A DNA stretch of 64,000 nt from Antennarius striatus (Eukaryota; Chordata; Actinopteri; Lophiiformes; Antennariidae), in the NCBI RefSeq assembly GCF_040054535.1, contig NC_090785.1, positions 16,494,001 through 16,558,000 on the forward strand, given 5' to 3'. Both the position numbers and the translations under genes were made by a program. Below, piece by piece: positions 51,101 through 54,100 of this stretch. Within the stretch, counting starts at the first letter, position 1. Every line of letters begins with the position of its first letter. The notes under the pieces were generated by a model. That model made no database searches and had not been told where the DNA came from. It worked only from the letters and a program-made list of their open reading frames with translations.

Positions 51101-54100
51101 ATGGCATGTGACGCATTCTTTGCTATTTCAGCTTCAAGTGGTGCCCCTGTTTGGAGACATGCAGATAGAGCTGTCGCGCTACATCGAAACAAGTGCTCAC
51201 TATGAGGAAAACAAATCCAAGTAAGTGAACGGATCTTATGCTCTTTACAACCATCTGTTTCCGCTCATCCTCACCCTTCCACTTTCTCCTTTATGCGTTC
51301 AGGTGGACGTGCACCCAGAGCAGCATCTCACCGCAATACAACCTGTGTGAGCAGATGGTGCAGATCAGGGAGGACCACATCCGTTTCATATCGGAGCTGG
51401 CGCGCTACAGCAACAGTGAAGTGGTGACGGGCTCTGGCCTGGACAGCCAAAAGTCTGACGAAGAGTATAGAGAGCTGTTCGACCTCGCTCTGAGGGGTCT
51501 ACAGCTGCTGTCCAAGTGGAGCACTCACGTCATGGAAGTTGTGAGTCAATGACGAGACTGGCTGTGATTGATAGGGCTTCAGACTGTGCTTCAGTCACTA
51601 TGAGTTGTTTTATGTATGAAGAAGATTGTTGTTTTTTCCAGGGAGAATTTGTGCTTGTGATTTATTTCTAGCTCTCTTTGTTTCTATCAGTATTCGTGGA
51701 AGCTGGTCCATCCCACGGATAAGTTCTGTAATAAGGACTGTCCAGGCACAGCAGAGGAGTATGAACGGGCAACACGATACAATTACACCAGTGAGGAGAA
51801 GTTTGCCCTGGTGGAGGTGATCGCCATGATTAAAGGGCTACAGGTAAAACAGCGTTGACTCTCACAGGTTTTGAGTATCCGTTCTCTCAAGTGACAATAA
51901 AAAGATAGTTCAAAAGTGAAAACCGTATAAATGTGAGAAACTGTAAAGTGGGCAGTTTTGATTGTCTTCCAAATACTGGCAGAAACAGTATTATGTGATA
52001 TATTATATTATTATTTTGAGTGTTTTAATGTTTTTAAGATCGTATTTCATGCAAAATACATTTTCTCATGGTTTCCCAACAAAAATGGCATTTTTCGCAG
52101 CTTAGGGAATTCAGAAAATTGTTAATGAGAGAATAATATAGGACATGAAAAATGTCTCATTGGCATCTGGAATGTTTTCTCATCTTAGTTACTGGAAGAA
52201 TGTAAATAAAGAAGTGTATGAAGGTATTCAAAATGATGATCATGGTCCCGTATAATGATCTTTGTAGGTTCTGATGGGTCGAATGGAATCAGTGTTTAAC
52301 CAAGCTATCAGGAATACCATATATGCAGCACTGCAGGACTTTGCCCAGATGACCCTTAGGGAGCCTCTGCGCCAGGCTGTACGGAAGAAGAAGAATGTCC
52401 TCATTAGGTACACACCCACAATGATGATCTGATCGAAAATTCTTTTAACTCATTCTTATGTCTCCTCTGCGTGGGAATCCAATATTCGTACAAGCTCTCC
52501 TATCCTGTTTTCTTCGTCTGTAGTGTTCTCCAGGCCATTCGAAAGACCGTATGTGACTGGGAGGGGGCGAGGGAACCTCCAAATGACCCCTGCCTGAGGG
52601 GGGAGAAGGACCCAAAAGGCGGCTTTGACATCAAAGTGCCCCGCAGAGCTGTGGGACCCTCCAGCACACAGGTAAGACGTGAAACTGAACAGGGCTGTTG
52701 TAAATGATGACTTGATTTGCTCACAGGGCAAATATGTAAGAGTGTATTGATGAAGTGGCCTGAAGTGCAAACACACAAATGACTTTTAAAGAAAATGAAA
52801 ATGAAAAAGGAATTGTTTTTGGTCTATCTTCAATTGGTGATCCTTAACAAATGGTCAAGGCATTTCAAGAGACTGACAATGGAGAGCAAAGAACTCCGGT
52901 TTAATGTTGTTACCTCTTTTCACTTTGTTTGACTGATTCCATGGAGTACGGTGCTTGTAACTCCTTTGCAAAGGTAAGCAGGTCGAGGTTAATGAGGAAA
53001 GTTGGGGATTGTGATCGTGAATTTAGTGAAGATAATGCAGATCTGAGAGCCCTGGGAGAATACTTAGCCTTACAATGTGTGCAATGACAGAGGTTATGGT
53101 CTATCAGCACTAATGACATTCTTCTGGTAGCAGGAGCATCTGTGTCCTTGGATACATAGATCCATTTTTTTTAATGAGGGGTCTAATGATGGTCAGGAAA
53201 AACAGAAGGACCAGATTATAAGACAATAAGATGAACAAAACTGTAACACATTACACAGTTTGATGGCTGATGGATTGTTTCTCTGAATTCTCTGCACTTT
53301 AGCAAAGTACATTTTTATTTGGTAGAGATCTTTGAGTGACAATTACAAATCCATTTACTGTTCGTATTCTTCCCAAAACTCCTCCTGTGGTGGAAATTAT
53401 AAATAAATGTGGATTCCATTTGCCTAAGGCTTGCTGTGAATAATTTCTCCTTGACATCTCTTTACCGTTGCCATCTCTCTGCAGCTGTACATGGTGCGCA
53501 CCATGCTGGAGTCACTGATAGCAGACAAGAGCGGGTCTAAGAAGACTCTTCGCAGCAGTCTTGATGGACCTATAGTTGTGGCCATAGAAGATTTCCACAA
53601 ACAATCCTTCTTCTTCACACACCTTCTCAACTTCAGTGGTGAATATATACTCTCAGGGCTACTTGGAACTAAACCAAAACTATTGTTTTATATTAAATTA
53701 ATATAATTTTATATAATAATCATCCTCTGCTTTCTGCCTGTGTCCATGCAGAAGCCCTGCAGCAGTGCTGTGACCTTTCCCAGCTGTGGTTCAGAGAGTT
53801 CTTCCTGGAGCTGACCATGGGTCGCCGAATCCAGTTCCCCATTGAGATGTCCATGCCGTGGATCCTCACTGACCACATCCTGGAGACCAAGGAGCCCTCT
53901 ATGATGGAGTAAGACAAACACTCAAATAGTGAACTTTCTTTGGTTATTGAGATTTTATTATAATTACCGTTGTGCTTCCTCCAGGTATGTGTTGTATCCT
54001 CTCGACCTGTATAATGACAGTGGTTATTACGCTCTCACCAAGTTCAAGAAACAGTTCCTTTATGACGAGATTGAAGCTGAGGTAAGATTTTTCTTTAAAT

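Follow-up and report, generated by a model that had tools for sequence, protein, structure and literature searches.

The stretch of Antennarius striatus DNA analysed here (the window; 64,000 nucleotides) very probably carries the ordinary and intact cyfip2 gene of a ray-finned fish, with Glu (GAA) in place of Lys at the codon that mammals and birds recode by K/E RNA editing. Genomic Glu in ray-finned fish CYFIP2 is in itself already known and has been in print since 2015 (PMC4449034). New here is a Lys codon at the homologous position of the cyfip1 paralogue of the same genome, which gives the change a polarity.

The K/E site of CYFIP2

In their 2015 paper, Frésard et al. describe editing of the K/E site in chicken CYFIP2, chiefly in brain (PMC4449034). 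They report that the residue produced by editing in chicken is genomically encoded in all ray-finned fishes of Ensembl, that the other available species all encode Lys at this site and that the unedited residue is conserved in the vertebrates examined; one sentence of their discussion states the direction of the change in reverse. A second publication stating that ray-finned CYFIP2 has a genomic Glu was not found in the literature searched. In mammals, ADAR2 is the main editor of the CYFIP2 site according to a 2012 review, which calls the significance of the K/E switch not clear (PMC3391646). The term K320 was not found in a paper on WAVE complex variants (PMC11632847). A zebrafish editing atlas names five genes whose coding edits are shared with human, gria2, gria3, gria4, cadps and cacna1d; cyfip2 is not one of these five (PMC8096273). 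This would be expected if the base is already a G, but the atlas filters may, by the same account, overlook isolated recoding sites, and the missing cyfip2 lends weak support to a genomic Glu.

The cyfip2 gene of the window

The gene was reconstructed as follows:

48143..61729, plus strand: cyfip2 coding region, 29 coding exons, 1252 residues, zero internal stops

The exons were found with a human CYFIP2 bait sequence and were then joined. All 28 introns have GT/AG ends, such ends being demanded by the joining script, and two acceptors (that of exon 5 and that at the exon 10/11 junction) were placed with the help of two human CYFIP2 peptides. Residues 1-556 of the model match human CYFIP1 (PDB 3p8c) over the full length of that stretch with 1135.9 bits, and the reading frame 57188-57457, the single frame of the gene covered by the Pfam test, matches the CYFIP family profile FragX_IP with 57.2 bits (curated cut-off 23.3). 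The residues that distinguish the two paralogues are of the CYFIP2 type in the window gene, against GRQEAQKTDAEYRKLF in CYFIP1. Assignment to CYFIP2 rather than CYFIP1 follows from these residues together with the presence of a distinct cyfip1 elsewhere in the genome. Two further weak matches of the CYFIP2 bait in the window, at 30323-30228 and 61657-61592, are out of place and were set aside. The same was done with a weak hit on Erb1 that exon 9 gave among PDB sequences (E 0.88).

About 23 kb upstream of cyfip2, a minus-strand reading frame at 24576-25358 covers the whole Pfam Med7 profile (4.3e-48). Human MED7 is located near CYFIP2, and the neighbourhood of MED7 and cyfip2 in the window fits orthology with human CYFIP2. 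The rest of the window holds a minus-strand reverse transcriptase fragment at 27370-27990 (Pfam RVT_1, 1.6e-13), probably the remnant of a retroelement, and a match to the LON substrate-binding domain at 15453-15929, also on the minus strand (2.5e-09). The longest stop-to-stop stretch of the window, 408 codons on the plus strand at 37929-39152, gave only a sub-threshold Pfam match to DUF3826 (24.5 bits; cut-off 25).

Codon 319 and its correspondence to the editing site

The codon in question lies within the ninth coding exon:

51132..51220, plus strand: coding exon 9, 30 residues once the opening base of exon 10 is added, without the boundary Gln of human CYFIP1

51186..51188, plus strand: codon 319, GAA (Glu), the homologue of the mammalian and avian K/E editing codon (human K320)

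The original prediction had read GAA at codon 319, and both codon and frame are confirmed by the rebuilt model of 1252 residues. It had also equated this position with the mammalian K/E editing site, an identification that three lines of evidence uphold. In human CYFIP1 (PDB 3p8c), the residue aligned with codon 319 is Lys320. The recoded peptide of human brain CYFIP2, as printed in a 2025 review of proteomic searches (PMC12295206), is YI[K>E]TSAHYEENK, and the 12-residue peptide of the fish is identical to its edited form in every letter. Finally, the site is given as NM_001037332 c.A958G p.K320E in PMC4053846.

The difference in numbering, 319 instead of 320, arises because exon 9 begins one residue short, lacking the counterpart of Gln301 in human CYFIP1; one fewer residue, placed just before the exon, had been supposed. 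The acceptor lies at 51131/51132 and the exon opens straight on a Leu codon, so that the window reads FKLQVV where human CYFIP1 has FKQLQVV. When the model is aligned to human CYFIP2, the missing Gln is the sole gap. The cyfip1 gene of this fish apparently retains the Gln codon, with CAA ahead of CTC and following a TTCCAG acceptor. The absent Gln codon constitutes a second difference, 19 positions ahead of the K/E site.

Base 51186, the first of codon 319, is a G. An A-to-I editing site of the K/E type has a genomic adenosine at this position, whereas here the codon already specifies the amino acid that editing would give, and the site is hard-wired as a genomic G. A-to-I editing at 51186 is both impossible and superfluous, because the base is already a G and Glu is fixed, and the view that the ‘edited’ state is built into the DNA and needs no editing thus holds. 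Editing at the other adenosines of codon 319 would still be compatible with the sequence. A DNA query of 201 bases across exon 9 finds a single match in its own assembly at E <= 0.001.

cyfip1 in the same genome and the direction of change

With exon 9 as a translated query, a search of the 548-Mb assembly, which scores best candidates only, returned two matches at E <= 10: cyfip2 itself and positions 11520121-11520207 of a separate contig (C7). A second, Lys-coding copy of cyfip2 was not among the matches listed for this query. The locus on C7 is identified as cyfip1 by further exons, query residues 1-890 being matched within the 19 kb examined, and it is of the CYFIP1 type, with GRQEARKTDAEYRKLF. 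Its codon at the editing position is:

C7:11520175-11520177: homologous codon of cyfip1, AAG (Lys)

Lys is thus found in human CYFIP1 and in the cyfip1 of this fish and, as reported in PMC4449034, in the CYFIP2 sequences available outside the ray-finned fishes. Taken together, these would most simply make Lys the ancestral state and Glu a derived state of ray-finned cyfip2. GAA can be reached from AAA by one change and from AAG, the codon of this cyfip1, by two, one of them silent. Both the breadth of Glu across fishes and its dating rest on the statement of one paper (PMC4449034).

Search for a relic of an editing structure

Mammalian Cyfip2 K/E figures in Table 1 of PMC5654063, which lists 23 conserved editing substrates, with 75% editing. 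According to the same paper, its 3' stem, the editing inducer element, spans 116 nt, forms 47 base pairs and lies 138 nt away from the edited position. The intron that follows exon 9 in the fish is small:

51221..51302, plus strand: intron 9, 82 bases

This intron is shorter than the mammalian inducer element as described in PMC5654063. Exon 9 of the fish ends 34 bases past the site, and the position at +138 is 51324, inside exon 10. Folding of the 300 bases at 51221-51520 gave a z of -0.44, with 66 of 200 shuffles equally or more stable, and pairing of the 61 bases at the codon was equalled or exceeded in stability by 55 of 60 shuffled flanks for the 1.3 kb upstream and by 34 of 60 for the 1.3 kb downstream, all three comparisons being made with no mammalian positive control. 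In a local fold of 50986-51386, base 51186 belongs to the loop that closes a short hairpin (51178-51194). An inverted repeat with a 14-base arm (50902-50915 with 51180-51193, 79%), one of the 25 listed out of 30 pairs, does lie over the codon; as a pairing element it was taken as chance, the duplex tests showing nothing beyond shuffles. Overall, there is weak evidence that a relic of an editing structure is absent near the fish codon.

How the fish may have come to encode Glu

From its sequence, the CYFIP2 of this fish would be predicted to carry Glu wherever cyfip2 is expressed. In mammals and birds, according to the printed record, the gene encodes Lys, and A-to-I editing supplies an additional Glu form enriched in brain; in mammals this editing is carried out mainly by ADAR2. 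The Glu may have had a single origin close to the base of the ray-finned fishes. Since it is reported to be present throughout this group, Glu is presumably tolerated or useful in fishes at this residue of a WAVE complex subunit.

The original prediction had left two histories side by side, a Glu that pre-dates mammalian editing and a Glu that replaced it. The former, if taken to mean that Glu is ancestral in bony-vertebrate CYFIP2 and that the tetrapod side mutated to Lys, with ‘restorative’ editing by ADAR bringing Glu back, draws on the fact that the edited product exactly equals the fish residue. However, it is confronted with Lys in human CYFIP1, in the cyfip1 of this very fish and, by the account in PMC4449034, in the CYFIP2 sequences available outside the ray-finned fishes, and it requires extra changes. 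This part of the prediction is disfavoured on these grounds, and we regard an ancestral Glu as improbable. A history in which Lys was subject to editing as early as the bony-vertebrate ancestor, and in which ray-finned fishes subsequently fixed Glu in the genome and lost the pairing elements, has somewhat better prospects, though it too is rather unlikely; it would require that early ray-finned fishes edited the site. The fish codon yields precisely the edited residue, and both mammals and chicken edit the site, so that editing probably goes back to the amniote ancestor or earlier. On the other side, signs of editing at this position in a ray-finned fish or an outgroup were not found in the literature searched, the evidence, weak as it is, speaks against a pairing element at the fish codon, and intron 9 has just 82 bases. 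Such a history does not contradict the preferred reading, an intact cyfip2 with a derived genomic Glu, but is one possible version within it.

Finally, GAA was seen in one assembly, as it would be if it were an assembly or allelic artefact. The open frame and splice sites are clean, though, and since every ray-finned fish in the 2015 comparison is reported to have the same residue (PMC4449034), an error of this kind is very improbable.

Comparison with known systems

With respect to the K320E site of mammalian and chicken CYFIP2, as described in PMC3391646, PMC4053846 and PMC4449034, the residue, the final amino acid and the protein context are the same. The difference is that Glu stands in the DNA of the fish, while the DNA of mammals and chicken encodes Lys and the Glu form is partial, brain-enriched and produced by A-to-I editing. 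The ray-finned CYFIP2 of PMC4449034 represents the same fact in general form, drawn from Ensembl genomes, to which the present analysis adds the comparison with cyfip1 within one genome. If the 2015 report holds (PMC4449034), the CYFIP2 of ray-finned fishes occurs naturally in the Glu form alone. This status would make zebrafish and medaka ready systems for probing the brain-edited Glu form, set against the Lys-coding tetrapods as well as against their own Lys-coding cyfip1. Should editing indeed have come first, CYFIP2 would be a case of an RNA edit become a germ-line substitution, with cyfip1 and its unedited Lys as an internal reference. A likeness exists in insects, where the nicotinic acetylcholine receptor subunit nAChR alpha6 is, according to PMC1919356, likewise edited in some species and encoded by a genomic G in others; unlike cyfip2, however, that system concerns another gene, with multiple sites, in insects.
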